Of a stretch of 34,062 bases of DNA, positions 189-30,928 are shown in pieces. The position numbers were made by a program, and so were the translations under genes. Location of the stretch: assembly GCA_012800855.1 (NCBI GenBank), contig JAAZIN010000091.1:1-34062 (forward strand), in the 5' to 3' direction. A model generated the notes under the pieces. That model ran no database searches. It saw nothing but the letters and a program-made list of their open reading frames with translations, and had not been told where the DNA came from. The DNA comes from Bacillota bacterium (lineage in GTDB: Bacteria > Bacillota > Dethiobacteria > DTU022). Position 1 is the stretch's first letter, and every line of letters begins with the position of its first letter.

Positions 189-1982
189 CTACATGGGCTG
201 GACCTTCTGCTTGTGCTCTTTCTTGAGCAGCGGTTCGGGGGCGTAAAGGCGCCGGGCCACGTAACCGGTGTGGAGCAGGCGGTGGGCCAGCTCGCTGCCC
301 GGGTGGCCGAGGAAGTCCCGGTAAAGCTTCTGCACTGCCGGGTTGGCATGGGCCTTGCGGCACTCCATCCGCCGGTCCAGCTCGTAAAGGCCGCCGCTTC
401 GGCGGGAGCGGTGGGCCACCTGCTCGTTCCAGTCGTTGGTCTCAATGTAGATGGGCTGCCCCCCTCCCCCCACGCAGCCGGCCGGGCAGGCCATGACCTC
501 GACGAAGTGATACTCCTTCTCCCCTTTCTTGAGAGCCTCGATGAGACGGCGCGCCTCCCCGGTGCCTCGGGCCACGGCCACCTTCAAGCGCAGGTCTCCC
601 ACCTGGATCTCGGCGTCCTTGTACTTGTCCGAGCGGACCTGGGGGAATTCCACGTTCTCCAGCTCCCTCCCGGTAAGCCACTCGCAGGCCGTGCGCAGGG
701 CCGCCTCCATCACTCCGCCGGTGGAGCCGAAAATGATCCCCGCGCCGCTGGCATGGCCCAGCGGCTCGTCAAAGTCTTCCTCGGGCAGCTTGCGCAGGTC
801 GATGCCCGCCTGGAAGAGCATCTGCACGAATTCGCGGGTACTCAGCTCGGCGTCCACGTCGCGGTAGCCGCTGGCGTTCATCTCGGGGCGCAGCAGTTCG
901 TATTTCTTGGAGACGCAGGGCATGATGGAGACGACAAAGATGCGCGAGGGGTCGATCCCCGCCTCGCGGGCGTAGTAGGTCTTGGCCAGGGCCCCGAAGA
1001 TCTGCTGCGGCGATTTGACCTCGGAGAGGTTTTTAATATACTCCGGGTAGAAGAGCTCGCAGAAGCGGACCCAGCTGGGGCAGCAGGAGGTGAACTGGGG
1101 AAAGGGGCCGCCGCGCTCCAGCCGCTCCAGGAACTCGGTGGCCTCCTCCATGACGGTGACATCGGCGCCGAAGCAATCGTCGAAGACGCGGTCGAAGCCG
1201 AGCCGCCTCAGCGCCGCCGCCATCTGCCCCGGCAGCGGCGTCCCCACGGGGTAGCCGAACTCCTCCCCGATGGAGGTGCGGATGGAGGGAGCGGTCTGGA
1301 CGACCACGTGCAGGTTGGGATCGCGCAGCGCCTCCCAGACGCGGGCGGTGGAATCATGCTCCCGCAGCGCCCCCGTGGGGCAGACGGTGACGCACTGGCC
1401 GCAGTAAATGCAGGGGGTCTCCATGAGCGAACCGTTGAACGCCGGCCCCACGACGGCATTGAAGGAGCGCTCCACCATGCGGTAGATCCCCACCGCCTGG
1501 TAGTACTCGCATACGGCGAGGCAGCGCCGGCAGCGGATGCACTTGTCCGGCTCGCGCACCACCGAGGGTGAGAGGTCGTCAACGGGGAAATGGTTGCGGC
1601 TGCCCTCGATGTGCAGGTCCCTGATGCCGTAGCGCTTGGCCAGCCGCTGCAGCTCGCAGTTGAGGCTGCGCTCGCAGGTGAGGCACTCGAAGGGGTGATC
1701 GGAGAGCAGCAGCTCGAGCATCTGCTTGCGCGCCGCGATTACCTCCGGGGTATGGGTGTAGACCCGCATCCCCGCGGCGGCCGGGAGCACGCAGGAGGCG
1801 TCCAGGGTCGGCCTTCCCTCCACCTGCACCAGGCAGATGCGGCAGGCGGCGGGGGCGTTGAGATCCTTCAGGTAGCAGAGGGTGGGGATGTCGATGCCGG
1901 CCTGGCGCGCGGCCTCTAGTACGGAGGTCCCCTCCTCCACCTCCACCTCCCGGTCATCGATCCATAGCTTCAGCTTCGGCAA
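189..1982 (-). CDS. hydA: [FeFe] hydrogenase catalytic subunit HydA (bifurcating type)
   Basis: Catalytic subunit of a trimeric cytoplasmic [FeFe] hydrogenase that couples H2 formation or uptake to NAD(P)H and ferredoxin. From the chosen start the protein has 597 residues. It contains an N-terminal [2Fe-2S] domain (C36, C47, C50, C64), a His-Cys [4Fe-4S] site (H96, C100, C103, C109) and two [4Fe-4S] motifs (C148-C158 and C191-C201). The H-cluster domain has TSCCPSW at 298-304, MPCVSKKYE at 354-362 and MACPAGCVGGGGQP at 497-510. A small-subunit-like tail (about 543-575) ends it. All H-cluster cysteines are present. It is the last gene of hydC-hydB-hydA and its start overlaps hydB by 29 bases. 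I chose the TTG at 1982 because GGGGAGGGAGG lies just upstream; a TTG at 2012 is possible. The multi-cluster architecture with HydB and HydC is that of electron-bifurcating group A3 enzymes; bifurcation itself is inferred. Confidence 0.95.
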   Translation of the reverse strand: MPKLKLWIDDREVEVEEGTSVLEAARQAGIDIPTLCYLKDLNAPAACRICLVQVEGRPTLDASCVLPAAAGMRVYTHTPEVIAARKQMLELLLSDHPFECLTCERSLNCELQRLAKRYGIRDLHIEGSRNHFPVDDLSPSVVREPDKCIRCRRCLAVCEYYQAVGIYRMVERSFNAVVGPAFNGSLMETPCIYCGQCVTVCPTGALREHDSTARVWEALRDPNLHVVVQTAPSIRTSIGEEFGYPVGTPLPGQMAAALRRLGFDRVFDDCFGADVTVMEEATEFLERLERGGPFPQFTSCCPSWVRFCELFYPEYIKNLSEVKSPQQIFGALAKTYYAREAGIDPSRIFVVSIMPCVSKKYELLRPEMNASGYRDVDAELSTREFVQMLFQAGIDLRKLPEEDFDEPLGHASGAGIIFGSTGGVMEAALRTACEWLTGRELENVEFPQVRSDKYKDAEIQVGDLRLKVAVARGTGEARRLIEALKKGEKEYHFVEVMACPAGCVGGGGQPIYIETNDWNEQVAHRSRRSGGLYELDRRMECRKAHANPAVQKLYRDFLGHPGSELAHRLLHTGYVARRLYAPEPLLKKEHKQKVQPM

Positions 1983-23282: not shown

Positions 23283-23359
<77 letters not shown>

Positions 23360-24054: not shown

Positions 24055-24128
24055 GCGGGTGTAGCTCAATGGTAGAGCACTGGCCTTCCAAGCCAGCAGC
24101 GTGGGTTCGATTCCCATCACCCGCTCCA
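24055..24128 (+). tRNA. tRNA-Gly, anticodon TCC
   Basis: Cloverleaf with acceptor GCGGGTG/CACCCGC, anticodon stem CTGGC/GCCAG around CTTCCAA with anticodon TCC (24085-24087), T-arm GTGGG-TTCGATT-CCCAT, discriminator T and encoded CCA. A short T-run follows directly, and a stronger terminator is at 24217-24255. Confidence 0.97.
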
Positions 24129-25865: not shown

Positions 25866-27122
25866 TCACACCGATCCCCGGGCGTGCAGGTAGTCATAGA
25901 TGAGCAGCCCCAGGTGAAGCTTGAAAATGTTCCCTGGGACGTGAAGGGGCAGTTTGGTGATCTCCTCGATCTGGTTGAGGCGGTATTTCATCGTGTGGCG
26001 GTGAATGTACAGCTCCCGGGAAGCCCGGCTGATATTGAGGCTGTTCAAGTACTTGCGCAGTGTTTCCATTAGTTCCCCGCCGGTCCGCCGGTCGTAGTCC
26101 AGCAGCGGGGCCACGGTTTCCCGGTAGAGGGATATTAGCGGCTCGCTGCTCTGAACTTCGGTTAAAATCTTGTAGGGCCCCAGGTCGTCGTAGGCCAGCG
26201 GCGCCTCGCCTGTAATCAGGTTCAGCTCGGCGATATGCGCCGCTTTCCTTGCTTCTTCCAGGGCGCTGCCCGTTTCCGCGAGCTTGTGCCGCACGCTGCT
26301 GGCGCCAGCCACGAATTTAAATTGGGGGAAAAAGAGCTTTAACTCGCTCAGCACCCGCCGGGCAACGGGCAGGAGCTGCTCCGGGGGCTGCTTGCCCGCC
26401 TGCAGCAGCAGGACGTAACTCTCACCCAGGGGGCCGGCCAGGAAGGGGAGCTTGTGCTGAGCGGCAATGTGGACCAAGGTAAGCTCCATCAGCAAAGGAT
26501 CATCCTGCTTTGCTGCCCCTGCCTCCGCCGGCTCCAGCGGAAGAGCCTTGATGGCTATGGCCAAGAAGGCATCTTCCGGTACGATCTGCATCTGGGACAA
26601 TTCCTCTTTAAGATCGGCAGGGTTTTCGCCTCGCGTGAGGCGCCCGAGGAGCTCGTGGCTCCGGCGCAGCATGGCTCTCAGGCGGGTGCTTTCCTCGTCG
26701 GCGCCGCCGTTTTCCCAGAGGCCGTTGCGGCGCATCAACTCCCCCAGCAGGCCCCTGGTTAATTTTTTAAAGCTGGTCTCAGGGGGGATCTCAATTACGG
26801 GGATGCCGTGCGCGGCGGCCAGCTCCACGAAGTGGGGTGGTATTTCCTTGACGTAATGGCCGGTTTGGATGGCCAGCGCCGCCAGGCCCTTGTTTTTAAA
26901 GTAAGCGATTAGCTCCCTCTGGCGGGCTTCGTTCTCCATGTTCAGATCGTAAGCCGTGGTGATGAGGAACTCGCCGGCTTCAATGTGGCTGAGATCATCA
27001 AGGATTTCGAGGATATTTACCCAGCGGATTTCGTTTTGCAGCCCGGCGGAGCCCGTCAGCACCCTGCAGGGCTGCAGCACCTCCAGCTTTAAGGCGTCAC
27101 CCACGGTTAGAGGCATTGGCAT
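25866..27122 (-). CDS. PucR-family transcriptional regulator
   Basis: A 418-residue regulator with an N-terminal PucR domain (about 5-125; TVGDALKLEVLQPCRVLTG, WVNILEILDDLSHIEAGEFL), a central GGDEF-like/CdaR-type region and a C-terminal helix-turn-helix of the HTH_30 type. The last shows as LRKYLNSLNISRASRELYIHRHTMKYRLNQIEEIT, read here in parts, near 350-395. Members usually activate catabolic genes for purines, amino acids or other nitrogen compounds. It diverges from the kam operon across 376 bases that contain a palindrome and a folded region, so it is the obvious candidate regulator of that operon. ATG at 27122 has GGGGAG upstream; 27116 is an alternative. Confidence 0.9.
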   Translation of the reverse strand: MPMPLTVGDALKLEVLQPCRVLTGSAGLQNEIRWVNILEILDDLSHIEAGEFLITTAYDLNMENEARQRELIAYFKNKGLAALAIQTGHYVKEIPPHFVELAAAHGIPVIEIPPETSFKKLTRGLLGELMRRNGLWENGGADEESTRLRAMLRRSHELLGRLTRGENPADLKEELSQMQIVPEDAFLAIAIKALPLEPAEAGAAKQDDPLLMELTLVHIAAQHKLPFLAGPLGESYVLLLQAGKQPPEQLLPVARRVLSELKLFFPQFKFVAGASSVRHKLAETGSALEEARKAAHIAELNLITGEAPLAYDDLGPYKILTEVQSSEPLISLYRETVAPLLDYDRRTGGELMETLRKYLNSLNISRASRELYIHRHTMKYRLNQIEEITKLPLHVPGNIFKLHLGLLIYDYLHARGSV

Positions 27123-27183: not shown

Positions 27184-27203
27184 CCTTATACAAAATGTAT
27201 AGG
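27184..27203. promoter_or_regulatory. Palindrome, possible PucR operator
   Basis: A 20-base near-perfect palindrome, CCTTATACAAAATGTATAGG, lies 61 bases upstream of the regulator start and 56 bases upstream of the putative -10 of the kam leader. Two AGACCT direct repeats (27207-27212 and 27221-27226) follow it. Position and symmetry suit an operator for the divergent regulator; binding is not shown. Confidence 0.4.
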
Positions 27204-27258: not shown

Positions 27259-27414
27259 TATAATCAAGCTGGCTCCACTGGGGCGCGGTGGCGAAACCCA
27301 ATGCAGCAATGTTTGCCGCACCAGCAGTTGCTTTCGGAAAAGCTTGTGTCCATTAACGGTTAATGCGTTTTACAACCAGGGCGCTGAAATTAAGGGTTTC
27401 ACCACCGTTTTTTT
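27259..27414 (+). promoter_or_regulatory. Putative promoter and structured leader of the kam operon
   Basis: A TATAAT at 27259-27264 is followed by a region with unusual complementarity. The arm 27286-27299 (CGGTGGCGAAACCC) pairs with 27394-27407 (GGGTTTCACCACCG) at 13 of 14 positions, and seven T follow directly (27408-27414). The same arm can instead pair locally with GTTTGCCGCACC (27311-27322). Between the long-range arms lie two perfect small hairpins: GCTTT/AAAGC (27330-27343) and CATTAA/TTAATG (27351-27365). This looks like an attenuator or riboswitch, or a small inverted-repeat element. I see no B12 box and no lysine-riboswitch core. No gene is seen in 27123-27498. Confidence 0.4.
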
Positions 27415-27498
27415 ATCTTCCCTCTTCCCGGTCCTCTGCTGCGGTCATTTAATACATTGAAAGAAGAACCGGGGAAAGCCAGGCAAAAGGTGGAGAGC

Positions 27499-28554
27499 AT
27501 GCCCGATCTCTTTCATCTGGTACGCAGCTCCGGTGCCGCCGGGCTGGCCATAGTGGGGATGACCAAGAACGTGGGGAAGACGGTAACCCTGAATTACCTT
27601 ATCGACCGCTTTTCCCACAGCGGCAACACCCTGGGGCTCCTTTCGGCCGGCTATGACGGGGAGCGCGTTGACCGGCTAACCCTGCGGGAGAAGCCGCGCA
27701 TCCTCGCGCCCGCGGGGGCACTGGTGGCCACCGCCGAAGCCTGCTTTGAGGCGGCGGAGGCGGACCTGGAGCCGCTTGCCGCGAGCTCCTTCTCCACCCC
27801 CTTGGGCGAAGTTTTCATCGGCCGGGTGAAGCGGGCAGGCCTGGTGGAGCTGGCCGGGCCGGGCAGCGCCGCGGCTCTGCAGGTGCTCATCGAGCGGATA
27901 AAGCAATACGGCGCCGTGCAGATCCTCGTTGATGGCGCCATTAACCGGCTCGCCTCGGCTTCTCCCTCCGTTACCGACGCCACCGTCCTGGCCACCGGGG
28001 CCGCCGTGGCCCCCCTGCTTGACGATATCATCCACAAGACCCTATTCCGCTGCCACATCCTTGAAGCCCCGGCTGTGGACGACCCGGCGCTGCTGGAAGC
28101 GGCCCGTGAAGGACTGGAGCGGGGCGAAGCGGCCTTGCTCCTGTGCCGGAACGGTTCCTGGGAGGCGGAGGCGCTCCATGCCCCCATTCCTCTCCTGGCG
28201 CGGGCGCAGCTGCGCCGGAAATTCCGCGAAGGGGTAGAGGCGGTAGTACTGGGCGGCGCCCTCATTGACCAGATGCTCCTGGAGATAAGCAGGCTCTCTT
28301 CCCCCCCGCCGGCGGTGATTATCCGGGACGCCACGAAAAATTTCATCAGCCCGGAGGCTCACGCCCGCTACCTGCAGAGCGGCGGCAAAATCATGGTCCT
28401 GCAGGCGATAAGGCTGCTGGCGGTGACCGTCAACCCCACCGACCCGGCGGGAAAGGACTACGATCCCGGTTATTTCTTGCAAAAACTTGCCGCGGCGCTG
28501 GCTCCAAGGCCTGTTTTTGACCTTGTCTTTGAAGAGGGCGCCGTGGCCAGGTAA
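27499..28554 (+). CDS. kamB: KamB-like lysine 5,6-aminomutase accessory (reactivase) protein
   Basis: A 351-residue protein with a BioD/MinD-type P-loop near its start (GMTKNVGKT at 20-28), followed by an alpha/beta domain with many short strands. It ends with a conserved-looking VNPTDPAGKDYDPGYFLQKL segment. It directly precedes kamD and kamE, the place of the KamB accessory protein in lysine-fermenting bacteria, which is thought to help reactivate the B12 enzyme together with the MutS-like KamC. KamC is absent here. I base the name on position and on general resemblance, so it is less certain than kamD/kamE. ATG at 27499 follows AAGGTGGAG; the TTG at 27457 has no ribosome-binding site. Confidence 0.7.
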   Translation: MPDLFHLVRSSGAAGLAIVGMTKNVGKTVTLNYLIDRFSHSGNTLGLLSAGYDGERVDRLTLREKPRILAPAGALVATAEACFEAAEADLEPLAASSFSTPLGEVFIGRVKRAGLVELAGPGSAAALQVLIERIKQYGAVQILVDGAINRLASASPSVTDATVLATGAAVAPLLDDIIHKTLFRCHILEAPAVDDPALLEAAREGLERGEAALLLCRNGSWEAEALHAPIPLLARAQLRRKFREGVEAVVLGGALIDQMLLEISRLSSPPPAVIIRDATKNFISPEAHARYLQSGGKIMVLQAIRLLAVTVNPTDPAGKDYDPGYFLQKLAAALAPRPVFDLVFEEGAVAR

Positions 28555-28598: not shown

Positions 28599-30182
28599 AT
28601 GGAGAACAAGCTGAACCTGGATCAAGCAATTATTGATGGAGCCCGGGCCGCAGCGTCGCGCATTGCCGACGCGCTGCACAGCTGGATCAGCCTCTATACC
28701 ACCACCACCATTGAGCGCGCCGTGGCGCGGCTGGTGGGCATAGACGGCGTGGACGCCGCCGGCGTGCCGCTGCCCAATGTCCTCGTCGACAGGCTGCATG
28801 AAAAGGGGCTGCTCGGGCACGGCCTCCTCTCCTGGCTGGCCCGGGCCATGATCTCCACCGGCCAGGGCCCGCAGGAGATTGCCGAAGCGGTCGCCGGGGG
28901 CAAGCTCGACGTCTCCGCCGTTCCCGCGCTGCCCGAGGAGAAATGGCGCGACCTGGGCGATGGCCTGGCGGCGGAGGCGGCGGCAAAGATCACCGCCCGC
29001 CGCCTTGAGCGGGAGCAGATGATGGCCACCGCCGCCCCGGAGCGGAAGCCGCTGCTTTATGTCATTGTGGCCACCGGCAATATTTACGAGGATGCCGTGC
29101 AGGCCAAGGCAGCGGCGCTGCAGGGCGCCGACATCATCGCCGTCATCCGCCACACCGGGCAGAGCCTGCTCGACTATGTTCCCTACGGCCCCACCACGGA
29201 AGGTTATGGCGGGACCTACGCCACGCAGGAGAATTTCCGCATTGTCCGCCGCGCGCTTGACGAGGCCATCAAGGAAACGGGCCGCTACATCCGCCTGGTG
29301 AATTACTGCTCCGGCCTCTGCATGCCCGAGATTGCGGCCATGGGGGCGCTGGAGCGGCTGGACATGATGCTCAACGATGCCATGTACGGCATCCTCTTCC
29401 GCGATATCAACATGCGCCGCACCCTCATCGACCAGCATTTTTCGCGCATGATCAACGCCTTTGCCGGCATCATCATCAACACCGGCGAAGACAACTACCT
29501 CACTACGGCCGATGCCTACGAGAAAGGCTATACCGTCATCGCCTCGCAGTTTATCAACGAGCAGCTGGCGCTCCGCTCGGGGCTGCGGGAGGAGCAGATG
29601 GGGCTGGGGCATGCCTTTGAGATCAACCCGGCGATGGAAGACGGGCTGCTCATGGAGATTGCCCAGGCCCAGCTCTGCCGCGAGCTCTTCCCCCGCTCGC
29701 CCTTGAAATACATGCCCCCGACGAAGCACGTGACCGGGGACATCTTCAGCACCTACCTCATCAACGGAATGTTCAACCTCGTGTCCATACTGACGGGGCA
29801 GGAGATCCAGCTGCTGGGGATGCTCACCGAGGCCATTCATACGCCCTTCTTAAGCGACCGCTACCTGGCGATCAAAAATGCCAGGTATGTCTTCAACAAT
29901 GCCCGCCACCTTGGGGAGGAGATCATCTTCAAGGAGCAGGGGCGCATCCAGGCCCGGGCCGTGGAGCTGCTCAACCGGGCCTACGCCTTGCTGAAGGAGA
30001 TTGAGAAGATTGGTCTTGAAGAAGCCCTGGAGCGGGGATTCTTTGCCGATATCAAGCGCAGCCGGGATGGCGGCAAGGGCAAAGAGGGAGTGGTGCTCAA
30101 GGAGAAGGACTACTACAATCCCTTCCCCGAAATTTTCCTGCAGCGCTCCGCGGCAAAAGACGATGATGGGAGGGCATGCTGA
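28599..30182 (+). CDS. kamD: Lysine 5,6-aminomutase alpha subunit KamD
   Basis: Large subunit of the adenosylcobalamin- and PLP-dependent lysine 5,6-aminomutase, which moves the terminal amino group of beta-lysine (or D-lysine) to the next carbon. The 527-residue protein contains the family blocks DYVPYGPTTEGYGGTYATQENF, FSRMINAFAGIIINTGEDNY, EEQMGLGHAFEINP and PLKYMPPTKHVTGDIFSTYL, quoted in part, consistent with its TIM-barrel fold. ATG at 28599 has GAAGGAGG upstream. It is 44 bases after kamB and its stop overlaps the kamE start (TGATG), so equal expression of both subunits is expected. Confidence 0.93.
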   Translation: MENKLNLDQAIIDGARAAASRIADALHSWISLYTTTTIERAVARLVGIDGVDAAGVPLPNVLVDRLHEKGLLGHGLLSWLARAMISTGQGPQEIAEAVAGGKLDVSAVPALPEEKWRDLGDGLAAEAAAKITARRLEREQMMATAAPERKPLLYVIVATGNIYEDAVQAKAAALQGADIIAVIRHTGQSLLDYVPYGPTTEGYGGTYATQENFRIVRRALDEAIKETGRYIRLVNYCSGLCMPEIAAMGALERLDMMLNDAMYGILFRDINMRRTLIDQHFSRMINAFAGIIINTGEDNYLTTADAYEKGYTVIASQFINEQLALRSGLREEQMGLGHAFEINPAMEDGLLMEIAQAQLCRELFPRSPLKYMPPTKHVTGDIFSTYLINGMFNLVSILTGQEIQLLGMLTEAIHTPFLSDRYLAIKNARYVFNNARHLGEEIIFKEQGRIQARAVELLNRAYALLKEIEKIGLEEALERGFFADIKRSRDGGKGKEGVVLKEKDYYNPFPEIFLQRSAAKDDDGRAC

Positions 30183-30928
30183 TGCAAGTTGATCTCACCA
30201 AGGTAAAAGCGTACGGGGATACCCTGAACGACGGCGCCGTTCAGCTCAGCTTTACTCTGCCCGTTCCGGCGGGAGAAGAGGCCCGCGAAGCGGCCCGCCA
30301 GCTCGCCTTGAAGATGGGGCTGGAGTCGCCGGCGGTTACCGAGATGGCCGACCTAGGCGCCGGCTTCAGCTTCTTTGTCGTTTACGGCCGCTGCCCGCAC
30401 AGCGTTGACTACACCGCCATCAAGATTCCCAAGCGGGAGCACGAGATAATGAGCTTTGACGAGGTCAACGAATTTGTCAGGAGAGAGCTGAAAAAGAAAG
30501 TGGTGGTCGTCGCCGCCTGCACCGGCACCGATGCGCACACCGTGGGCATAGACGCCATTGTGAACATGAAAGGCTATGCCGGAGAATACGGGCTGGAGCG
30601 CTATCCTGAATTTGAAGCCTACAACCTGGGCAGCCAGGTTCCCAACGCCGAGCTGCTGGCCAAGGCGGTGGAGCACGGGGCCGATGCCGTGCTCGTCTCG
30701 CAGGTGGTGACCCAGAAAAATATCCACCTGGAAAACCTCACCGAGCTCATCGAGCTGGCCGAGGCCGAAGGAATCCGCGACCGCATGCTTTTCATCTGCG
30801 GGGGGCCGCGCATCTCCCATGAGCTGGCCATTGAGCTGGGCTACGATGCCGGCTTTGGGCCGGGAACCCTGCCCAATCACGTGGCTTCCTTCATTGTGAA
30901 GGAACTGGCCCGCAGAAAGAAGCAATAA
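30182..30928 (+). CDS. kamE: Lysine 5,6-aminomutase beta subunit KamE
   Basis: Small B12-binding subunit of lysine 5,6-aminomutase, 248 residues. The cobalamin-binding motif DAHTVG gives the lower-ligand histidine H119, and K130 in NMKGYAGEYGLERY aligns with the lysine that holds PLP in the characterised Clostridium enzyme. The spacing H to K of 11 is the same as in that enzyme. The B12-binding Rossmann domain continues with QVPNAELLAKAVEHGADAVL and FICGGPRISHELAIELGYDAGFGPGT, in part. ATG at 30182 has GGGAGGG seven bases upstream; the ATG at 30176 is too close to it. A strong hairpin follows the stop. Confidence 0.94.
   Translation: MQVDLTKVKAYGDTLNDGAVQLSFTLPVPAGEEAREAARQLALKMGLESPAVTEMADLGAGFSFFVVYGRCPHSVDYTAIKIPKREHEIMSFDEVNEFVRRELKKKVVVVAACTGTDAHTVGIDAIVNMKGYAGEYGLERYPEFEAYNLGSQVPNAELLAKAVEHGADAVLVSQVVTQKNIHLENLTELIELAEAEGIRDRMLFICGGPRISHELAIELGYDAGFGPGTLPNHVASFIVKELARRKKQ

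Follow-up and report, generated by a model that had tools for sequence, protein, structure and literature searches.

A candidate attenuator leader RNA upstream of the lysine 5,6-aminomutase genes kamBDE in a family of Bacillota

The region between a divergent PucR-type regulator gene and kamB was analyzed in a 34,062-nt stretch of Bacillota DNA (the window), in its relatives and in other genomes of the phylum. The sequence comparisons suggest, with a probability of roughly 60%, that this region encodes a leader acting as a conditional transcription terminator (attenuator) that controls kamBDE. A promoter between the two genes would give an RNA with the 5' arm of an intrinsic terminator at its beginning; this arm would lie exactly at the RNA 5' end in most relatives, and just after a 5' hairpin in the window. 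The 3' arm and a U-run would follow some 105-140 nt further on. Left to itself, the RNA would close end to end and transcription would stop before kamB, and kamBDE could be expressed only if some factor that acts on the conserved stretch between the arms kept the RNA from closing. The arms, the T-run, the fixed distance to operator and -10 box, the conservation, and the replacement of both arms without loss of pairing were seen directly; that the RNA starts as predicted, that transcription terminates in vivo, that kamBDE are controlled in this way and that a trigger of some kind exists are what we infer from them. The features of the window are as follows.

25866..27119, minus strand: divergent PucR-type regulator gene (Pfam PucR, GGDEF_2 and HTH_30); orthologues adjoin the element in relatives
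27187..27201, no strand assigned: palindrome TATACA-AAA-TGTATA, likely regulator-binding site, 84 bases before 27271
27259..27264, plus strand: TATAAT, likely -10 box, identical in the sister species
27271, plus strand: likely RNA 5' end, predicted from the spacing to operator and -10 box in 20 relatives
27272..27284, plus strand: 5' hairpin GCTCC-ACT-GGGGC in the predicted fold, where relatives have the first arm
27286..27299, plus strand: terminator 5' arm CGGTGGCGAAACCC (inverted repeat, predicted fold), 14/14 identical in the sister
27300..27314, plus strand: conserved non-stem block, 14/15 identical in the sister
27358..27393, plus strand: conserved non-stem block, 34/36 identical in the sister
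27394..27407, plus strand: terminator 3' arm GGGTTTCACCACCG (inverted repeat, predicted fold), 14/14 identical in the sister
27408..27414, plus strand: seven-T run TTTTTTT, 7/7 identical in the sister
27499..28554, plus strand: kamB, lysine 5,6-aminomutase reactivase subunit (NCBIfam NF052386)
28599..30182, plus strand: kamD, lysine 5,6-aminomutase alpha subunit (NCBIfam NF052384)
30176..30928, plus strand: kamE, lysine 5,6-aminomutase beta subunit (NCBIfam NF052385)

The KamB, KamD and KamE matches all exceeded the curated NCBIfam cut-offs. The start of the PucR-type gene (27119) was set by comparison with relatives; the list of open reading frames gives 27146. A preliminary description of this DNA had placed a TATAAT 21 bases before the first arm, and it is found at 27259-27264. 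A -35 consensus was looked for upstream of this TATAAT and was not found, so the window promoter is probably activator-dependent. Two tRNA genes (window 23283-23356 and 24055-24125) lie upstream of the Ldh_2 dehydrogenase gene that adjoins the PucR-type gene.

The terminator hairpin was examined first in the window. The arms CGGTGGCGAAACCC and GGGTTTCACCACCG pair at 13 of 14 positions across 94 bases and the T-run follows directly, as the preliminary description had reported. An inverted repeat of 14 bases at least as good was found in 8 of 1000 dinucleotide shuffles of 27259-27498. In the predicted fold of the plus strand (-49.8 kcal/mol, z -1.97), the 5' hairpin sits just upstream of the long stem. 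The antisense strand folded somewhat better than the sense strand (z -2.79), so that folding energy alone cannot pick the strand, which is given by the T-run and the promoter. The window thus has a stem with a direct T-run between the promoter and the first gene, the arrangement of an attenuator with an intrinsic terminator.

The leader was compared with that of the sister (G001), the sole other genome of the window's genus compared, and the two were 85% identical. Both arms were unchanged, and 13 of 14 bases were identical in 27271-27284. The stretch from the terminator to kamB (61/84) and, above all, the apical part (23/43, 53%) had diverged. The conserved non-stem bases were identical at 48 of 51 positions, which was above background (binomial tail 2e-6, for blocks picked after the alignment had been seen), and this conservation indicates that selection probably acts on more than a bare terminator. 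The preliminary description had read the region as a two-way switch, in which 27286-27299 could also pair locally with 27311-27322. However, the duplex energy of this local pairing (-11.8) was no better than the shuffle mean (-12.1, p=0.53); the sister's first arm had its best local partner elsewhere. Two perfect hairpins described between the arms (by eye near 27331-27344 and 27352-27366) lay within the apical part or at its border and were broken in the sister. Of the proposed attenuation logic, the promoter, the long-range terminator, the T-run and kamB were conserved in the family, but the switch was not, its local alternative being at chance level.

Next to the window and its sister, the other members of the family were analyzed. 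Of the 71 genomes of the order, 21 had kamB, and these all belong to the window's family, which consists of uncultured bacteria; 20 of the 21 loci shared a common leader anatomy between the PucR-divergent promoter and kamB. The element GATTCTACTGC...GCAGTAGAATC, 108-117 nt overall, was found upstream of kamB in 18 of the 21 loci. The two loci of the window's genus have arms of their own at the same position, both arms having been exchanged; in the window, GGCTCCACTG stands where relatives have the first arm. If the proposed reading is right, the terminator stem retained its function through the replacement of both arms. In each of the 20 loci where the distance was measured, a palindrome TATACA-N3-TGTATA is found 82-84 bases upstream of the first arm base, and a -10-like box stands just upstream of the first arm in relatives, where this arm is the presumed RNA start. 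Relatives have a conserved 5' segment, TGANNNAATAAYTGCGG. The second arm is followed by a T-run in most family loci; in L025, L034 and L042 the T-run is poor or absent, a point against the attenuator reading, and the gap to kamB is long. In relatives kamB mostly starts 31-45 nt past the stem end, so that a second promoter would hardly fit in between and transcription of kamB must pass through the terminator. In the kamB leader of L041, the 3' half including the terminator was apparently deleted between GCGG-like repeats, and the promoter and the 5' segment remain.

Pairing was also assessed in an alignment of 29 elements, 24 from the family and five from genus g58 (described below). The 11-bp closing stem was paired in 319 of 319 cells and two pairs were changed on both sides, both double changes coming from g58; since the members had been gathered by patterns that favour pairing, this is supporting rather than independent evidence. 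Stronger evidence for pairing came from the joint exchange of both arms in the window's genus and from the family arms, which vary solely by G.U-type changes, each a wobble on the sense strand. These same changes bear on a reading at the DNA level, in which the arms would be protein-binding sites joined by a loop of about ten helical turns. The nearly invariant arm sequence of relatives, the almost constant total length (108-117) and the persistence of arms in the three loci with a poor T-run would fit such sites. However, all arm changes are tolerated by sense-strand RNA pairing, both arms changed together in the window's genus, and T-runs occur solely after the second arm, which makes this reading very improbable.

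Inside the closing stem, a three-pair extension past a 3-nt bulge was present in part of the aligned set. A TGCGG/CCGCA inner helix was found in most kam-bearing main-group relatives and, by eye, was absent from most g4 members. In 14 of the 24 family members the 3' arm had its best alternative partner in a segment resembling ACTGCGG, at about element positions 21-28, which would be a candidate antiterminator. A permutation analysis, with two rows out of register, gave no significant covariation for it (p 0.73 for the whole segment and 0.31 for its variable part). The preliminary description had called for a covariation analysis of homologous leaders; a conserved, covarying antiterminator was found in neither the window, the sister nor the relatives.

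Known RNA families were searched with Rfam at gathering and relaxed thresholds. No match was found at the element in the window or its relatives, and no covariance model of a lysine, cobalamin, T-box or other Rfam riboswitch matched it. The kam loci of 14 other genomes had no Rfam riboswitch either; a RAGATH-18 RNA was noted near the Thermotalea metallivorans kam operon (L051, 7499-7560, minus strand). The lack of an Rfam aptamer speaks against a riboswitch, an unlikely reading in which an aptamer between the arms would bind a metabolite or cofactor of lysine degradation and so decide terminator formation. Such a role would suit the position before a B12/PLP-dependent catabolic operon, the conserved non-stem blocks of the window's genus and the TGANNNAATAAYTGCGG segment of relatives. 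However, the interior has little conserved structure beyond the closing stem, the partial extension and the partly kept TGCGG/CCGCA helix, and the window and its relatives have no recognisable core in common.

Leader attenuators with an intrinsic terminator are known from Bacillota as riboswitch, T-box and protein-controlled types. The kam leader resembles them in its promoter, structured leader, terminator with T-run and operon, but its terminator 5' arm lies at or next to the RNA 5' end, so that the whole leader is enclosed, and no known aptamer or protein site is present. Some small RNAs pair their 5' end with the terminator, as in 6S-like closing stems, and the kam element shares this end-to-end closing stem. 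6S RNA itself was rejected: the element had no RF00013 match and the genome has its own 6S RNA on contig C118. A Na+/c-di-AMP tandem riboswitch precedes the lysine-2,3-aminomutase gene of Dehalobacter, which serves the synthesis of the osmolyte beta-lysine (PMC9337991). This is likewise RNA control of a lysine aminomutase gene, but the enzyme and its role differ, and the kam element did not match that Rfam family. In the open-licence papers searched, neither an RNA leader for kamB nor kamD together with PucR was reported. If the attenuator reading is true, KamBDE lysine fermentation in the family is under two controls, one exerted by a PucR-type regulator and the other by an RNA terminator; the terminator uses the very start of the transcript, and the leader RNA would be an undescribed one.

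The copy number of the element was determined because the preliminary description had offered a MITE as the alternative and a genome search for further copies as its check. The window's genome has a single copy. A covariance model (R1) built from 14 of the family's elements found one element per genome and, within the class, was convincing solely in the window's family; a pattern search with a spacing of 100-128 matched no element because the true gap is shorter. A MITE that happens to sit before kamB is therefore rejected as scarcely credible: the copies are single and orthologous across genera, always at the same locus and at a fixed operator distance, no target-site duplication was seen by eye at the family's elements, and the arms of the window differ. 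What could speak for it are MITE-like elements in several other families of the phylum (L194 and L199-L205), with inverted GATTCYACTGC ends similar to the arms of the kam leader and with what appear to be target duplications of 6-7 bp. GATTCTACTGC also occurs as solitary sites at other places in the family, where inspection by eye recognised no insertion-sequence ends. A coding or leader-peptide reading (GAT TCT ACT GCT ... in relatives) was rejected by eye, since third codon positions are equally conserved and frames are not kept open.

Elements were also found where kamB was not. Six g4 species without a recognised kamB have kept PucR, operator, promoter, element and T-run; downstream of the element they have another terminator-like hairpin and the gene of an M20 peptidase. 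This second hairpin, between the element and the M20 gene, is AGGGCAGGCAAA...TTTGCCTGCCCTTT (L138-L143), and in L141 a Group II intron fragment (RF02003, 1193-1312, minus strand) lies in the same interval. The gene order in G039 and G010 is PucR, element, kamB, kamD, kamE, M20, which indicates that the six species probably lost kamBDE. The element thus seems to be useful in the absence of kamB, be it to M20 or as an RNA in its own right, and an attenuator of kamBDE alone leaves its retention in these species unexplained. A possible, though unlikely, explanation is a small RNA gene, whose clamped, terminated RNA of 115-143 nt would act in trans, kamB being expressed by leakage or as a secondary user. 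The six species with promoter, element and T-run ahead of the second hairpin and M20, the near invariance of both element ends, and the similar RNA that g58 has at its mobA-secA locus would agree with this. However, kamB in the family starts so close downstream that the transcript must be shared, and M20, which formerly followed kamE in the operon, may remain the target in the kam-less species. Under the attenuator reading, these species offer a test case for an attenuator living on as a small RNA.

The RNA of genus g58 was found when R1 was run across 399 genomes of the phylum, as weak matches with E values of 0.007-0.009 per genome. Five g58 species have GATTCCACTGT...ACAGTGGAATC-T8 directly after a -10-like box, one of them with a G.U closing pair.

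L156, 546..687, minus strand: g58 RNA
L157, about 1508..1650, minus strand: g58 RNA
L195, L196 and L198: g58 RNA

Where the flanks are known, this RNA lies between mobA and secA, and a hemerythrin gene comes next in two cases. The g58 element looks like a genuine terminator RNA; its homology to the kam leader is suggestive only, because of the large number of genomes searched. We give little credence to the broader proposal of a new RNA class, in which a kam leader that senses a metabolite or cofactor of lysine degradation would also function as a separate small RNA and would have homologues in a second bacterial family, in genus g58 at the mobA-secA locus. The 3' arm of the g58 RNA can alternatively pair locally, as ACACTGTTCTGG/CCAGCTACAGTG.
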